A DNA stretch of 64,000 bases from Candidatus Hydrogenedentota bacterium (GTDB taxonomy: Bacteria > Hydrogenedentota > Hydrogenedentia > Hydrogenedentales > Hydrogenedentaceae), in contig JAOAHN010000099.1 of the NCBI GenBank assembly GCA_026415215.1, positions 1 to 64,000 of the forward strand, in the 5' to 3' direction. How positions within the stretch are numbered: position 1 is the stretch's first letter; every line of letters starts with the position of its first letter. The notes below the pieces were generated by a model that made no database searches, had not been told where the DNA came from, and saw only the letters and a list, made by a program, of their open reading frames with translations. Below, piece after piece: positions 47,848 to 54,645 of the stretch. The position numbers were made by a program, and so were the translations under genes.

Positions 47848-48228
47848 ATGAAGGCGTTGGTAGTAGACGATTCTGCAGTAATGAGAAAAGTTCTAATAGG
47901 CGCATTGAGTAGAGTTAATATAACTGATGTAGATCAAGCAGGAGATGGAGTTGAGGCGGTTCAGAAAGTTCAAGAGAATGACTACGATATTATTTTGCTC
48001 GATTGGAATATGCCTAACATGTTAGGCATAGATGCGCTGAAAGCCATTCGGAGTATGGGGAAAAACATGCCGATCATAATGGTAACCACTGAGGCGGAGA
48101 AAAGTAGAGTGTTAGAAGCATTGAAAGCAGGAGCAACCAATTATGTTATAAAACCATTTGAACCGAATACCATAGTAAACAAGATCCAAGAGGTATTGAA
48201 TAAAGCGAAGGGTAGTAGTCTAACATAA
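47848..48228 (+). CDS. cheY: chemotaxis response regulator CheY
   Basis: This is a 126-residue single receiver with D7-D8, phospho-acceptor D52 in ILLDWNMPN, the Thr in VTTEAEK and the Lys in VIKPFEP. The Trp after the phospho-Asp (DWNMPN) is common in true CheY proteins. It lies 17 bases downstream of cheX, after GGAG. It probably carries the CheA output to its motor or pilus target. Confidence 0.95.
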   Translation: MKALVVDDSAVMRKVLIGALSRVNITDVDQAGDGVEAVQKVQENDYDIILLDWNMPNMLGIDALKAIRSMGKNMPIIMVTTEAEKSRVLEALKAGATNYVIKPFEPNTIVNKIQEVLNKAKGSSLT

Positions 48229-48237
48229 TTCCCAAAT

Positions 48238-48747
48238 ATGTCTAAAGAATTAGAAAAGTTGCCTGAGTTTTTTCTCGAGCCTGGTTACATTTACTTTTCT
48301 AAATCCCCCTTAAATTTGTATGCTGTGCTGGGTTCGTGTGTAGCAGTGTGTATATGGGACAAAAATTTAAAAATAGGGGGGATGTGTCATTTCCTTTATC
48401 CCAGGGTACCGTCCAAAGAAAAAAGAACTTCAAAATACGGTGATGTAGCTGTATTGGGACTAATAAAAATGATGGAGAACTCTGGGGCAAAGCGAGAATC
48501 CATGCTTGCTCAAATTGTAGGAGGAGCAAGTCCCCCTTTTATAAAGAACGATAATAATTCATTAGGTAAGGAGAATGCGGAGGTAGCAAGGAGTATTTTA
48601 AATAAGAAAGGCATAACAATCGCATCGGAAGATACAGGCGGTAGCATGGGGAGAAAGATAGTATTTAACACATACACAGGACATTTGATGGTACTTAAGG
48701 TCTACAAAATTCGAAAAGATGACTGGATATTACACTCAACAGAGTAA
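48238..48747 (+). CDS. cheD: chemoreceptor glutamine deamidase CheD (copy 1)
   Basis: CheD deamidates receptor glutamines and, in several species, binds CheC. The 169-residue protein has the catalytic Cys and His in LGSCVAVCIWDKNLKIGGMCHFLYP and the AQIVGGASPPF segment. The family Thr may be the one in SEDTGGSMGRKI. It begins nine bases after cheY. The second copy at 49580-50059 differs clearly in sequence, so the two are not a recent duplication. Confidence 0.92.
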   Translation: MSKELEKLPEFFLEPGYIYFSKSPLNLYAVLGSCVAVCIWDKNLKIGGMCHFLYPRVPSKEKRTSKYGDVAVLGLIKMMENSGAKRESMLAQIVGGASPPFIKNDNNSLGKENAEVARSILNKKGITIASEDTGGSMGRKIVFNTYTGHLMVLKVYKIRKDDWILHSTE

Positions 48748-48751
48748 TTAT

Positions 48752-49555
48752 ATGGATACTGCCACTTTTAACGATTTTAGAAAATTGATATATGGAGTTA
48801 GTGGAATCTCACTGAACGAGCAAAAGCGAGCACTCGTGGTGGGTAGGTTATCAAAAAGAATGCGGGCATTAGGGATAAATGATTTTAGGGAATATTATAA
48901 CTATGTATTAAAAGATAAAACAGGGACTGAAATCACAAAATTAATAGATGCTATATCCACCAATGTTACTCACTTTTTCCGTGAAGCAGACCATTTTACC
49001 TTTTTAAAGAACAAACTCTTAGAGTGGTATGATTTAGGGCAGAAGCGGTTCAGAATATGGTCAAGTGCATGTTCAACTGGGGAGGAACCATATACTATTG
49101 CCATGGTAGTGTTGGAAACATTAAAAGGACCAGATATAGATATAAAAATACTTGCTACTGATATTTCAACAAGAGTATTAGAACATTCTAAAAAGGGAGA
49201 ATATTACTCCCACAAAGTAGAAGATATTCCAAAACATTTACTCTTAAAGTATTTTACAAAGAAAAGAGAAGGTGATGACTGTGTATATGTTGTAAATGAA
49301 AAGTTAAAGAATATAATTAAATTCGCAAGGTTAAACTTAAAGAGTACACCCTATCCGATGCAGGGTCCTTTTGACGCTATCTTTTGTAGAAATGTAATGA
49401 TTTATTTCGATGAGAGTGTAAGAGAACTGCTCATCTCTGAAATATACAGACTGCTAAGGAAAGGGGGTTATTTATTCATAGGTCATTCTGAAAGTATAAC
49501 TTCTTCCCAGAACAAGCTCCAAATTTTAAAGCCTTCAATTTACTATAAACCGTAA
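48752..49555 (+). CDS. cheR: chemotaxis protein methyltransferase CheR
   Basis: CheR methylates receptor glutamates using SAM. The 267-residue product has the N-terminal helical domain (FRKLIYGVSGISLNEQKRALVVGRLSKR), the TNVTHFFREADHF substrate-binding region, the SAM motif IWSSACSTGEEPYTIAM, and DAIFCRNVMIYFDE. The reading frame is open to 48719, inside the end of cheD. ATG 48752 fits the family start better, but neither has a strong ribosome-binding site, so coupled translation from cheD is likely. Confidence 0.94.
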   Translation: MDTATFNDFRKLIYGVSGISLNEQKRALVVGRLSKRMRALGINDFREYYNYVLKDKTGTEITKLIDAISTNVTHFFREADHFTFLKNKLLEWYDLGQKRFRIWSSACSTGEEPYTIAMVVLETLKGPDIDIKILATDISTRVLEHSKKGEYYSHKVEDIPKHLLLKYFTKKREGDDCVYVVNEKLKNIIKFARLNLKSTPYPMQGPFDAIFCRNVMIYFDESVRELLISEIYRLLRKGGYLFIGHSESITSSQNKLQILKPSIYYKP

Positions 49556-49579
49556 GGATTACATAACCGGGAATATACT

Positions 49580-50059
49580 GTGTGGACAACAGTGAACATA
49601 TCCGACATGAAAGTATCCAAAAATCCAGAAGATGTCCTTATAACATATTCTCTCGGATCTTGCGTAGGAGTTACACTGTATGATCCTCTACAAAAAATAG
49701 GTGGAATGATTCACTGTATGCTTCCTCTATCAAAAATTGATCCTGTAAAAGCAAAGGAAATTCCGTTTATGTTTGTAGATACAGGTCTACCTCTTTTACT
49801 TCAAACACTTCTGGATATGGGTGCTGATAAAAAAAGAATCGTAGCAAAAGTAGCGGGAGGCGCAATGTTGCTTAACGATGATGGGATATTTAGAATTGGT
49901 GAGAGAAACTATATAGTAGTAAGGAAATTATTATGGAAAAATAACATATTGATATCTGCAGAAGATGTAGGTGGGACTGTGGCAAGAACTATGATTTTAT
50001 ACATTAATGATGGTAAAACAATTATAAAGAGTGCGGGAAGAGAGTACGAACTAAAGTAG
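49580..50059 (+). CDS. cheD: chemoreceptor glutamine deamidase CheD (copy 2)
   Basis: The second CheD of the operon has 159 residues. The active-site segment reads LGSCVGVTLYDPLQKIGGMIHCMLP with Cys and His in place; KVAGGAMLL and SAEDVGGTVARTM follow. It lacks most of the loop between the catalytic region and the Gly-rich segment seen in copy 1. The start is GTG 49580; an internal ATG ten codons later is possible. It may act on a different receptor class or serve as the partner of a CheX/CheC-type phosphatase. Confidence 0.9.
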   Translation: MWTTVNISDMKVSKNPEDVLITYSLGSCVGVTLYDPLQKIGGMIHCMLPLSKIDPVKAKEIPFMFVDTGLPLLLQTLLDMGADKKRIVAKVAGGAMLLNDDGIFRIGERNYIVVRKLLWKNNILISAEDVGGTVARTMILYINDGKTIIKSAGREYELK

Positions 50060-50069
50060 GAATTTCAAA

Positions 50070-50924
50070 ATGACAAAAAAATCAGAGATCTTAAAAAAGT
50101 TGGAAGAAATTCCAGCTCTTCCCACGAATACAAGTAGTATATTACGAAAAATCCAAGACCACGAAGTGCCGATGACTGAAATTGCGAAAGAAATTCAAAC
50201 TGATCCTACTTTGACATCTAATTTACTAAAGTTAGCAAATTCAGCCTATTTCGCAGGGCCTAAAAAAATAAGCACCATAAAAGAAGCAGTAGTAATGCTA
50301 GGAGTTAACCGAGTCTATCAAATGATAATTGCCTCTGCAATATTTCCACTTGCTCTCAAACCCCTAAAAGGATATGACCTTCCTGCAGGTGAGCTTGTGA
50401 GACATTTAGTAGGAACCGCGATAATAAGTGAACTCTTAACCAAAGAGATTAAGATTGTCGCTCCTCCTTATACTTTCACAGTAGGTTTACTACACGACAT
50501 AGGCAAAATAGCGTTAGGCACTTTCTTAGAGTTGGAAATAAAACTAATCATCCAAAAAGCATATGAAGAAAAAATATCTTTTGAAAAAGCGGAAAAAGAA
50601 GTATTAGGCATAGACCATGCTGAAGCAGGCGCTTTCCTTATGAAAAATTGGAATTTCCCCGATAACCTTATAGTTCCTGTATTATATCATCATGAACCTG
50701 AGAAAACGGTAGGGGAATACCAATTAGTAACAGATATAATTCACATTTCGAGTAATATTTGCATAGAATGTGGAATAGGAGCTGGAATCGACGGACTTAA
50801 CTACTCCAATAATCCTTCATCTATCGAAAGATTAGGACTCTCGTTTCAAAATGTAGAAAGTATAATATGTAAGTTCATATCAGAGCTCAATTCTGTATTT
50901 AAAAACTTAGATATGTCCGCTTAG
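50070..50924 (+). CDS. HDOD-domain signalling protein
   Basis: HDOD proteins are HD-related regulatory proteins that mostly lack phosphodiesterase activity. The 284-residue product shows IPALPTNTSSILRKIQDHEVPMTEIA, LLKLANSAYFAGPKKISTIKEAVVMLG and the HD-like VGLLHDIGKIALG; here the HD pair itself is retained. The C-terminal helices include LIVPVLYHHEPEK. It sits inside the chemotaxis operon between cheD copy 2 and a second CheY. HDOD genes often accompany chemotaxis or c-di-GMP systems; the precise role is unknown. Confidence 0.9.
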   Translation: MTKKSEILKKLEEIPALPTNTSSILRKIQDHEVPMTEIAKEIQTDPTLTSNLLKLANSAYFAGPKKISTIKEAVVMLGVNRVYQMIIASAIFPLALKPLKGYDLPAGELVRHLVGTAIISELLTKEIKIVAPPYTFTVGLLHDIGKIALGTFLELEIKLIIQKAYEEKISFEKAEKEVLGIDHAEAGAFLMKNWNFPDNLIVPVLYHHEPEKTVGEYQLVTDIIHISSNICIECGIGAGIDGLNYSNNPSSIERLGLSFQNVESIICKFISELNSVFKNLDMSA

Positions 50925-50934
50925 GAGATTTATA

Positions 50935-51333
50935 ATGGGAATTAATATTTTGGTGGTAGATGACTCACAAATAATCAGAGGAGTAGTTATAAAAACTCTT
51001 AGTTTATCAGGTCTCGAAATAGGAGATATATACGAAGCTAGCAATGGCAAAGAAGCTTTAGAAATTTTAAAAAACAACTGGATAGACCTTATCTTAACAG
51101 ATATTAATATGCCTGTAATGAATGGGATAGAGTTAATCAATGAAATAAGCAAAGATGAATTACTAAAAACTATTCCTATTGCCATCATTTCAACCGAGGG
51201 CAGTCGTAAGAGAGTAGAAGACCTGGAAAACAAGGGCGTTAAAGCCTACTTAAGAAAACCATTCACTCCAGAGTCCCTGAAGAATACAATCATCGATTTA
51301 CTTAAATTAGAGGGGGATAGAAAGAATGATTAA
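50935..51333 (+). CDS. second CheY-like response regulator
   Basis: This is a 132-residue stand-alone receiver with D9-D10, phospho-acceptor D56 in LTDINMPVMNG, the Ser/Thr position in IISTEGS and the Lys in YLRKPFTP. It differs from the operon's first CheY and is followed directly, with an 8-base overlap, by a CheX-like gene. The two may form a regulator/phosphatase pair that acts as a phosphate sink or second output. Confidence 0.93.
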   Translation: MGINILVVDDSQIIRGVVIKTLSLSGLEIGDIYEASNGKEALEILKNNWIDLILTDINMPVMNGIELINEISKDELLKTIPIAIISTEGSRKRVEDLENKGVKAYLRKPFTPESLKNTIIDLLKLEGDRKND

Positions 51334-51778
51334 TGATAAAACAATTAAACAGGTACTAAAAAGAGTAGCGGAGGAATTTGCATTTATGTTTACGGAAGAA
51401 GTTGAGGATACTGTTTATGAAATACCCAGTAATTTAGTTGAATCCGAAATGGAATTTTTCGGCCCTATTAGAGGCAAAGTTATTATGATAGCTCCTGAAG
51501 AGTTTTGCAAAATTGTAATTAGTAATGTTCTTGGAATAGAAGATATAGACGGAGAAGAGATTTCTGTAAGCGTTGAAGAAGCTTTATGCGAATTTTTAAA
51601 CATTTTTTGTGGAAACTTGTTAACTGAGAGCTTCGGAGAAGATGTAATATTTGACTTATACCCGCCTAAATCAGGAAAAACCGATTTAGAATATTGGGGA
51701 GAAATGCTCTCAAATGAAAAATTTATTTGTGTTTTAATAGAAGAATACCCTGTATATGTATGCATAAAAATTAAATAG
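51326..51778 (+). CDS. CheX-like protein (putative CheY phosphatase)
   Basis: The 150-residue protein resembles the CheX domain. The N-terminal helix is VAEEFAFMFTEEV, followed by a short beta sheet (GPIRGKVIMIAPEEF) and the helix EALCEFLNIFCGNLL, in which E and N are spaced as in the CheX active site. Overall similarity to the operon's other CheX is low. Overlap with the preceding CheY-like gene supports joint function. The assignment is moderate; it could be a non-catalytic adaptor. Confidence 0.7.
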   Translation: MINDKTIKQVLKRVAEEFAFMFTEEVEDTVYEIPSNLVESEMEFFGPIRGKVIMIAPEEFCKIVISNVLGIEDIDGEEISVSVEEALCEFLNIFCGNLLTESFGEDVIFDLYPPKSGKTDLEYWGEMLSNEKFICVLIEEYPVYVCIKIK

Positions 51779-51818
51779 GAACCACAGAAAATCATAGGAA
51801 CAAGCAGAGGAGAGATAA

Positions 51819-52907
<1,089 letters not shown>

Positions 52908-52942: not shown

Positions 52943-52972
52943 AAAGGAGGTGATAAGAAGAAAATGAGTTAG
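52943..52972 (+). promoter_or_regulatory. perfect Shine-Dalgarno with two-codon ORF ahead of the riboswitch
   Basis: AAAGGAGGTGAT (52943-52954) is complementary over 12 bases to the usual 16S 3' end (ATCACCTCCTTT). An ATG at 52964 is followed by AGT and a TAG stop, a minimal Met-Ser reading frame that ends one base before the riboswitch P1 stem (52974). The spacing from AGGAGG to ATG is 13 bases, longer than ideal. It could be a leader mini-ORF or a ribosome standby site, or chance. Confidence 0.4.
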
Positions 52973-52973
52973 T

Positions 52974-53123
52974 CCACTAATGCTAAGGGAAGTGCGGTGA
53001 GAATCCGACGCAGACGCGCTGCTGTGACTGGGGACGAAAGCCACAAATAGTGCCACTGTCCTAAAAGGATGGGAAGGCGTGGTTAGTAGGGTGAGCCAGA
53101 AGCCAGAAGACCTGCATTAGTGG
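52974..53123 (+). ncRNA. cobalamin riboswitch (aptamer)
   Basis: P1 is a perfect 10-bp stem: CCACTAATGC (52974-52983) with GCATTAGTGG (53114-53123). Conserved core elements are visible: GGGAAGTGCGGTGAGAATCC, GCTGCTGTGACTG, GCCACTG and the B12-box-like GAGCCAGAAGCCAGAAGACCTGC. A loop ACGCG in GCAG-ACGCG-CTGC could kiss the loop CGCGG of the following hairpin (53137-53158). It binds a cobalamin and should repress the downstream gene when B12 is plentiful. It lies 66 bases after cheB and governs 53305-54645. Confidence 0.93.
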
Positions 53124-53304
53124 TAGTAGTTACTGTAACAACTCGCGGAAAAGTTGTTGCGGGAGTGGCTCCTTCCTGAGATGCCAAACCTGCCTGCTTT
53201 TCCCCCCTTTACTAAGATACCGTACCAAAGATCAATATCGTGTGTTGTATTTTTTATGTAAAACTTAAATGATTTAACAACTAACTATAGGAAGGAGTGC
53301 AAAA
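53124..53304 (+). promoter_or_regulatory. riboswitch expression platform with anti-Shine-Dalgarno
   Basis: After the aptamer, AACAACT-CGCGGAAA-AGTTGTT (53137-53158) forms a hairpin whose loop may contact aptamer loop L5. CTCCTTCC (53169-53176) is an exact 8-base complement of GGAAGGAG (53290-53297), the ribosome-binding site of the gene starting at ATG 53305. It can instead pair with GGAG at 53162-53165. This suggests translational control by alternative pairing. The sequence around it (CTCCTTCCTGAGATGCC) resembles the loops of the RNA elements at 33041-33274. Confidence 0.65.
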
Positions 53305-54645
53305 ATGTTCAGAATTCAAAAGCCCTTCTTTATTTTCTGTTTAGTCTTAGGCATCTGTGCTTATATAAGTGGTAGCTATGGGGAAAGAATTATTCATCTA
53401 ACTACTTTACCTCAACCAGCGCCTGGCAGTTACTTTATTACTTCTGCTCCTTTAGAAGATGGCACATATATAGTATGGAACGGTGACGATATTTACAAGC
53501 AGGTAAGTATGAATACCGACGAATTTGTAAAGATAGCTGAAGGCTACCAGGGGGACCCAGCTTTCATAGCCGTATCTCCGAATGGAGAAATAGCTATATT
53601 GGGGCAAGGTTATTTAGGGAACTTATATAGGCTCGATTTGCAAAACCCGCAAGACTTTGACCCAAGTTGTATTGTAGGAAATCTCTCACACTTTTATGGA
53701 GCATTTTTAAATGAAAACTTGCTCATATTAGATGTGGGAAAACCAGATTTTTCAGGAAGTGAAATACATGTACTGAGTATTTCAGGTGGAAAGAGTATTA
53801 GTAAACCAGTCTTATCCCGTATATTTATGAAGCCTAAAGAAATGATAATTGACAAACCTCCGTATGCCTATTCAGCTTCGGTAGCAGTTGACATATCAAG
53901 AGGATGGGTTTACATAATGGATGGAAATGCAAGAGAATTAAGAAAGTTCTCAATAGAGGACATTATCAACGCATATAACTCGAATGAAACCCTAAACTGG
54001 GAAGATGATGGAATACTAATAGGAACAGCAGGACGATATTTCAGTGGTGGTGTTTCAGGAATTACAAATGATGGTCTTCTGATAATAGGTGGTTCAGAAG
54101 GGTTTATGATGCCCGGGGGCATTCAAGAAGTAAACCCACTTACAGGTGAAATCCTAAAGGTATGGGATCCAGCAGGAAATCAGGGTTACTATTCAGCCTT
54201 TTATAATATTGTGGGAGATTCAATACTTGGAATAGTATCCAATCAGGGATACTTAATACTGAGGTCTTACGAAGAATGTCCGGATTGTCTCTTTGTAAGA
54301 AAATCTATATATGAAGCAGGGACTGATATATGCCTTGATGTATTTGGTATGGAAATTCCTGCGAACCCCACATTTAGGTGGAGTAAGGTAGGAGAGAATA
54401 TTGAGTTGAATCCGAGAATTTCAGGAATTAACTGTAAGAAGTTGTTCATTTATAATTCCCAGCCTGAAGATTCAGGAACATATATTTGCGAAATTGGGAA
54501 TGCAAAAGCAATATACCGAATCACCATAAAAGTGACCGATAAGAATGTTCCAGCTTCTAACTATTTTGGAATCCTAATTGGCGTCTTCTTTATAATCTTT
54601 ACGGGGATAGTCCTCCTACATAAGAAGGTTCGTGTAGCTCCGTAA
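53305..54645 (+). CDS. B12-riboswitch-controlled secreted protein: propeller-like, Ig-like, C-terminal anchor
   Basis: The 446-residue protein has a signal peptide (about 1-26). Residues about 30-320 have repeated beta-rich units (GEIAILGQGYLGNLYRLDL, GWVYIMDGNARELRKFSI, GLLIIGGSEGFMMPGG) suggesting a beta-propeller. An Ig-like domain follows (about 325-412, with FRWSKV and EDSGTYICEI). The C-terminus has a membrane helix (about 420-438) and a basic end (HKKVR), like a sortase-type sorting tail. The only functional clue is the riboswitch. In Bacteroidetes the B12-binding surface lipoprotein BtuG is also a riboswitch-controlled propeller, so a B12-capture role is a hypothesis. I know no named family for it. 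Confidence 0.65.
   Translation: MFRIQKPFFIFCLVLGICAYISGSYGERIIHLTTLPQPAPGSYFITSAPLEDGTYIVWNGDDIYKQVSMNTDEFVKIAEGYQGDPAFIAVSPNGEIAILGQGYLGNLYRLDLQNPQDFDPSCIVGNLSHFYGAFLNENLLILDVGKPDFSGSEIHVLSISGGKSISKPVLSRIFMKPKEMIIDKPPYAYSASVAVDISRGWVYIMDGNARELRKFSIEDIINAYNSNETLNWEDDGILIGTAGRYFSGGVSGITNDGLLIIGGSEGFMMPGGIQEVNPLTGEILKVWDPAGNQGYYSAFYNIVGDSILGIVSNQGYLILRSYEECPDCLFVRKSIYEAGTDICLDVFGMEIPANPTFRWSKVGENIELNPRISGINCKKLFIYNSQPEDSGTYICEIGNAKAIYRITIKVTDKNVPASNYFGILIGVFFIIFTGIVLLHKKVRVAP

Follow-up and report, generated by a model that had tools for sequence, protein, structure and literature searches.

BtuG, a B12-binding surface protein of Bacteroides that works together with BtuB, is a seven-bladed beta-propeller, and BtuG1 carries in addition a BtuH domain, both parts of BtuG1 being described as B12-binding (PMC10404256). 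In BtuG2, B12 is bound on a negatively charged face (PMC10404256). The B12 contacts of BtuH2 are Gln333, Asn399, His476, Tyr510, Trp511 and Trp577, with Leu578 and Phe401 lying beside the lower ligand (PMC8941943). In several phyla, exported jelly-roll proteins of the DUF4465/BtuJ type bind B12 and are linked to riboswitches (PMC13398666). Nothing relevant was found in the published literature on B12 uptake by Hydrogenedentota or on B12-controlled pilins.

A stretch of 64,000 nucleotides (i.e. the window) from a Hydrogenedentota MAG of the genus Hydrogenedens (a 3.3-Mb draft in 146 contigs) was analysed for a gene that an earlier sequence-only reading had described as a cobalamin-controlled, secreted and propeller-like protein, possibly capturing B12 in the manner of BtuG. 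The explanation we favour, and consider reasonably probable as a whole, is that the product of this gene is an anchored protein with which Hydrogenedentota acquire corrinoid, its synthesis being confined to times of B12 scarcity. The riboswitch itself was recovered by cmscan of the window as a full-length covariance-model match whose 87.8 bits far exceed the gathering score (31.5).

52963..53133, + strand: cobalamin riboswitch aptamer RF00174 (cmscan, 87.8 bits, E 2.6e-20, model positions 1-189)

The aptamer claimed earlier is thus present, with a start at 52963 and not at 52974, i.e. 11 nt earlier than proposed. From its end to the start of the open reading frame there are 171 nt. Each of the three other Hydrogenedens genomes has an orthologous aptamer in front of its orthologue of the gene. 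Searches with RF00174 and with a propeller profile were run over an identical set of 68 Hydrogenedentota genomes and the positions were joined. The propeller profile detected 33 separate loci in 31 of these genomes, and at 31 of the 33 an RF00174 aptamer lay on the same strand, 185-334 nt upstream of where the domain match begins. These riboswitch-linked loci span eight families of the order (f1, f2, f3, f4, f5, f7, f9 and f11). As only about 100 RF00174 aptamers are present in total across the 68 genomes, chance was ruled out as the source of the association; the loci share descent, and the link has outlived divergence to about 30% identity. The two propeller loci without an aptamer (in G044 and G050) are the most divergent copies, and both genomes also lack the BtuH-like gene described below. 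The cobalamin riboswitch is a conserved part of the propeller family across the phylum. Homologues detached from B12 riboswitches and B12-linked genes, the outcome named beforehand as counting against a B12 role, did not emerge, and the protein very probably has a role in B12 acquisition.

The leader between aptamer and gene contains the following elements, read from the sequence.

53137..53158, + strand: regulatory stem-loop directly 3' of the aptamer (AACAACT, loop CGCGGAAA, AGTTGTT)
53169..53177, + strand: anti-Shine-Dalgarno segment CTCCTTCCT, an exact 9-nt complement of the gene's Shine-Dalgarno
53289..53297, + strand: Shine-Dalgarno AGGAAGGAG, complementary to 53169-53177

The stretch CTGTAACAACTCGCGGAAA(A/G)GTTGTTG is the same in four Hydrogenedens leaders except for one base, and comparable stems are also present in more distant leaders. 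One leader (L005) has a 10-nt complement to that species' own, different Shine-Dalgarno, while two others (L004 and L006) have complements of 9 and 7 nt to their own Shine-Dalgarno at a slightly shifted leader position. An intrinsic terminator was rejected as the expression platform, there being no terminator-like site in the leader. From these four sequences, translational control would be the simplest reading: with cobalamin bound to the aptamer, the anti-Shine-Dalgarno would mask the ribosome site and turn translation off, and the propeller protein would be produced when cobalamin is scarce.

The controlled gene encodes a protein of several parts.

53305..54645, + strand: propeller, Ig-like and membrane-anchor protein of 446 aa (open reading frame, ATG at 53305 to stop at 54645; homologues in 31 of 68 Hydrogenedentota genomes)
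53305..53379, + strand: signal peptide without a lipobox cysteine, residues 1-25 approximately (from the sequence; the model has a hydrophobic helix at 6-21)
53386..54261, + strand: predicted beta-propeller domain, residues 28-319, with a net charge of about -16 and six blades, strand 28-32 closing the last one (AlphaFold strand list; Foldseek matches are propellers)
54307..54531, + strand: Ig-like domain, residues 335-409 (model; Pfam Ig_3 at E 8.9e-5, below the curated cut-off; also in other proteins of relatives)
54553..54630, + strand: C-terminal membrane helix and basic tail, residues 417-442 (model; comparable end in most complete homologues)

An AlphaFold model of the 446-aa protein, built with 25 homologues, had a mean pLDDT of 85.7, and its strand list points to six four-stranded blades, a count taken from that list and not from coordinates. 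Foldseek comparison with the PDB returned propellers, the best match (E 1.6e-11) being an archaeal surface-layer propeller. Target-normalised TM-scores were 0.65 for NHL and 0.64 for strictosidine synthase (six-bladed) as compared to 0.58 or less for the listed WD40 proteins; BtuG was not among the best 50 PDB matches. The guess of a propeller was therefore confirmed by model and fold matches, a non-propeller fold having been the outcome that would speak against it, and the signal peptide, Ig-like domain and C-terminal anchor proposed with it are likewise borne out by the model. Ig_3 reached 23.4 bits against a curated cut-off of 30, such that support for the Ig-like fold comes from the model. 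Apart from this sub-threshold hit, Pfam gave no match in the protein and NCBIfam gave none at all; the B12-regulated family is thus absent from every annotation library searched (i.e. Pfam and NCBIfam). A profile of the 25 propeller homologues had no significant match among PDB sequences. Membership of DUF4465 was rejected for the propeller protein and for its BtuH-like partner, neither having a Pfam match to it.

Cobalamin riboswitches also control B12-independent isozymes, and the better fold matches include six-bladed enzymes, e.g. strictosidine synthase. On these grounds the protein could be produced in response to a lack of B12 as an enzyme or a stress protein, for instance a B12-independent substitute, instead of a transport component. 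We regard this as improbable: no known enzyme family was detected with Pfam or NCBIfam, the reaction that it replaced would have to take place outside the cytoplasm, and the gene shares an operon with BtuH-like genes at 11 loci.

The distribution of the family was examined with several searches. Residues 10-315 used as a query matched 36 of 60 relatives at a loose threshold, some of these matches being to Ig-like domains only. An alignment-based scan of genome contigs gave 23 loci, almost every one of them on a contig with the label Hydrogenedentota or uncultured bacterium; a single-sequence scan, with patterns drawn from one divergent sequence, found zero relatives among the contigs. Average identity of the propeller domain among 25 members was 31-45%. 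The Ig-like part is not always present in the family and, together with the membrane part, recurs in other proteins without a riboswitch, indicating that the propeller domain is the conserved unit. Two proteins have double propeller domains (L009 1492-3609 and L021 1-1752, in G009 and G034), and one genome (G030) has a second propeller gene in tandem (L010 2703-3233). Family f10 is without the propeller; in its place stands a different secreted family under riboswitch control, with an Ig-like part and a C-terminal helix (L125 2306-3733, + strand, and 12 relatives). The PDB matches of this replacement family were Ig-type domains in its C-terminal part; it was rejected as a propeller homologue, no relationship being detectable (hhalign probability 2.5%). 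In the source genome, alaS lies downstream and a chemotaxis gene cluster upstream of the riboswitch gene, an order kept in congeners where contigs permit. The upstream cluster (window 47848-52907), also kept in congeners, comprises genes of the CheY, CheD, CheR and CheB types.

The location of the protein was considered from its two ends. Exosortase sorting of the C-terminal anchor was dropped as PF09721 is absent in the genus Hydrogenedens, and cell-surface sorting was for this reason not assumed. Given a signal peptide, a C-terminal helix with a basic tail and no sorting enzyme, the protein is placed by default on the inner membrane facing the periplasm; capture would by default be periplasmic, and a surface position like that of BtuG is not established. 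The C-terminal helix would hold the propeller on the membrane, with the Ig-like domain as a spacer. An OmpA-family protein suggests that an outer membrane is present.

No B12 uptake gene adjoins the propeller gene in the source genome, whose only other cobalamin riboswitch (G000:C47) lies on another contig and controls a 716-aa secreted BtuH-domain protein (L086 305-2452, - strand). Members of this BtuH-like family begin DPWAD and have a GxDFxVYSNAF motif. Homology to BtuH was detected with a single sequence (E 1.5e-11), a full-length profile (E 4.5e-21) and a profile of the N-terminal domain (E 1.3e-19 to 8blw_B, i.e. BtuG1 with its fused BtuH domain, and 4.8e-18 to 7biz, i.e. BtuH2). The best PDB fold match of the partner's AlphaFold model was also 8blw_B, with 7biz matched as well. 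Contact residues were mapped through the printed alignment, taking the chain number plus 100 as the BtuH2 number, a relation inferred from the tyrosine-tryptophan pair. Asn399 and Tyr510 of BtuH2 correspond to N115 and Y190 of the Hydrogenedens partner, both invariant in 26 of 26 sequences, and almost all sequences have F at the Phe401 position; the Trp511, Trp577 and His476 positions are not kept. Binding of B12 by the BtuH-like partner is, from these residues, likely but not certain. The family also matches NCBIfam NF033170 (the Leptospira lipoprotein LIC_13355) at E about 1e-9. Earlier work on LIC_13355 dealt with it as an adhesin (PMC11891782); it may contain a domain of the BtuH-like type.

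At 11 loci (in G004, G014, G019, G025, G032, G039, G042, G046, G060, G063 and G064) the BtuH-like gene lies directly 3' of the propeller gene, on the same strand and behind one common riboswitch. Another 30 BtuH-like loci are under their own riboswitch and five have neither in view. BtuH-like genes were present in 28 of 31 propeller genomes as compared to 17 of 37 others (odds ratio 11; P = 1e-4, a value that ignores phylogeny). The three propeller genomes without one are G044, G050 and G026, the last having a second riboswitch that runs off a contig end. The check for linkage to B12 genes in related genomes therefore returned an operon and regulon link to proteins with a domain of a known B12-binding family, and the riboswitch control common to the propeller and the BtuH relatives makes the propeller a probable part of a B12-scavenging system, in bacteria most of which are without the usual outer-membrane B12 transporter.

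All 25 propeller domains are acidic (net charge -10 to -31), as is common in secreted proteins; the charge is weakly consistent with a negative B12-binding face of the BtuG2 type. Direct binding of a corrinoid by the propeller domain is moderately favoured. Alternatively, the propeller may be a scaffold or docking platform in B12 acquisition for the BtuH-like protein or the pseudopilin, with BtuH the sole binder. The BtuH domain is indeed the only part homologous to a proven B12 binder, and the exchange in family f10 of the propeller for another riboswitch-controlled, Ig-like anchored protein argues that the exact domain is replaceable. Against this, B12 binding is ascribed to both members of the equivalent Bacteroides pair, i.e. 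to the propeller as well as the BtuH domain of BtuG1 (PMC10404256), and in the present family it is the propeller that is conserved while the Ig-like part is sometimes missing. A pure scaffold is accordingly considered possible but rather unlikely.

The BtuH-like gene is followed by the gene of a pseudopilin of about 290 aa with a prepilin N-terminus, 51-88% identical to the reference across families. The pseudopilin gene comes straight after the riboswitch in several genomes (G007, G010, G015, G020, G029 and G033). This pseudopilin subfamily, found behind cobalamin riboswitches either after the BtuH-like gene or alone (e.g. L084 5136-5993, - strand; L104 4585-5448, + strand; L140 2408-3307, + strand), has the highly conserved motifs GGYGYN, HFRHxGRxNVxWxDGHxxSE and GWFGPxNN. 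Tandem cobalamin aptamers precede a different pseudopilin-like gene at L117 (G048:C11 52302-52472 and 52649-52814, - strand) and at G062:C373. A weaker cobalamin riboswitch match (L148, G016:C19 48159-48460) lies in front of the gene for a PEP-CTERM protein, in which the stretch GADFAIFENGF resembles the BtuH-like motif.

The need of the lineage for B12 was assessed from marker enzymes. CbiC was absent in all 20 relatives examined, the genus being without detectable corrin ring synthesis, and the B12 domain of MetH was present in 19 of the 20. Since CbiC is absent while MetH is kept, the lineage probably relies on corrinoid from its surroundings, a single missing enzyme not being proof. Homologues of BtuF, BtuD and BtuC form one operon in the source genome, without a riboswitch; by analogy, this operon would transport B12 rather than iron. 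In four other genomes (G014, G020, G033 and G036; loci L111, L113, L130 and L094), BtuF and BtuCD genes lie directly behind a cobalamin riboswitch. The TonB plug domain was detected in 15 of 60 genomes and the TonB barrel domain in 21 of 68, neither in any of the four genomes of the genus Hydrogenedens, and no plug or barrel was found on riboswitch-bearing contigs. Among the 27 propeller genomes tested, seven had a plug. As a TonB receptor is undetectable, the genus is taken to have no BtuB, and the expected linkage to BtuB is missing. These observations raise the question of how B12 enters outer-membrane bacteria that need it and have neither BtuB nor another TonB receptor.

In the acquisition route proposed here, the acidic propeller domain would bind corrinoid, or would form a platform with the BtuH-like protein, and the captured ligand would pass to BtuF and then to BtuCD. 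For the outer membrane, a more speculative extension, which we consider doubtful, is a route free of TonB and BtuB in which propeller and BtuH-like protein capture the corrinoid and a pilus-like device of pseudopilin carries or admits it to BtuF. The support for such a route is co-regulation. If true, this would amount to a new type of importer for vitamin B12, and the co-regulated pseudopilin offers a testable handle on the missing outer-membrane step.

The parallel with BtuG drawn in the sequence-only reading was retained for the propeller fold, the conserved B12 riboswitch and the link to BtuH, and was lost for sequence relationship, blade number and linkage to BtuB; B12 capture accordingly stands as a role in acquisition, through riboswitch conservation and the BtuH link, and not as descent from BtuG. 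As with BtuG, the Hydrogenedentota protein is an exported acidic beta-propeller controlled by a cobalamin riboswitch, in a regulon with BtuH-domain proteins, and the type of control, the fold and the BtuH-like genes of the regulon would also fit a true BtuG orthologue acting as a lid on a BtuB transporter. That possibility is very remote and, for the genus, is refuted unless some TonB receptor of high divergence should come to light. Six blades were modelled as compared to seven in BtuG, and the profile of 25 homologues gave no BtuG match at E up to 1 among PDB sequences, including 8blw BtuG1. BtuG has an N-terminal lipid anchor, whereas the Hydrogenedens propeller has a C-terminal helix, no cysteine at the end of its signal peptide and an extra Ig-like domain. 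TonB plug and barrel domains are lacking in all four Hydrogenedens genomes, and the plugs of the seven propeller genomes are never on a riboswitch contig. The protein would thus take the part that BtuG has in Bacteroides, by means of a propeller of another kind and, within the genus, in the absence of BtuB.

The closer sequence relationship to a described system is that of the partner and not of the propeller. It is a BtuH homologue with the Asn399 and Tyr510 positions invariant and is likewise found under cobalamin riboswitches, extending BtuH-type B12-binding domains to the uncultured phylum Hydrogenedentota. It differs from BtuH in not keeping the tryptophan and histidine positions given above, in the place of its domain, which lies at the N-terminus of a protein of about 700 aa that has a membrane helix at the other end, and in being followed by a pseudopilin gene, whereas the Bacteroides gene lies beside btuB. 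Propeller and BtuH domain are thus combined under B12 control both in Bacteroides and, with another propeller, in the present phylum, which suggests that this capture scheme was invented repeatedly.
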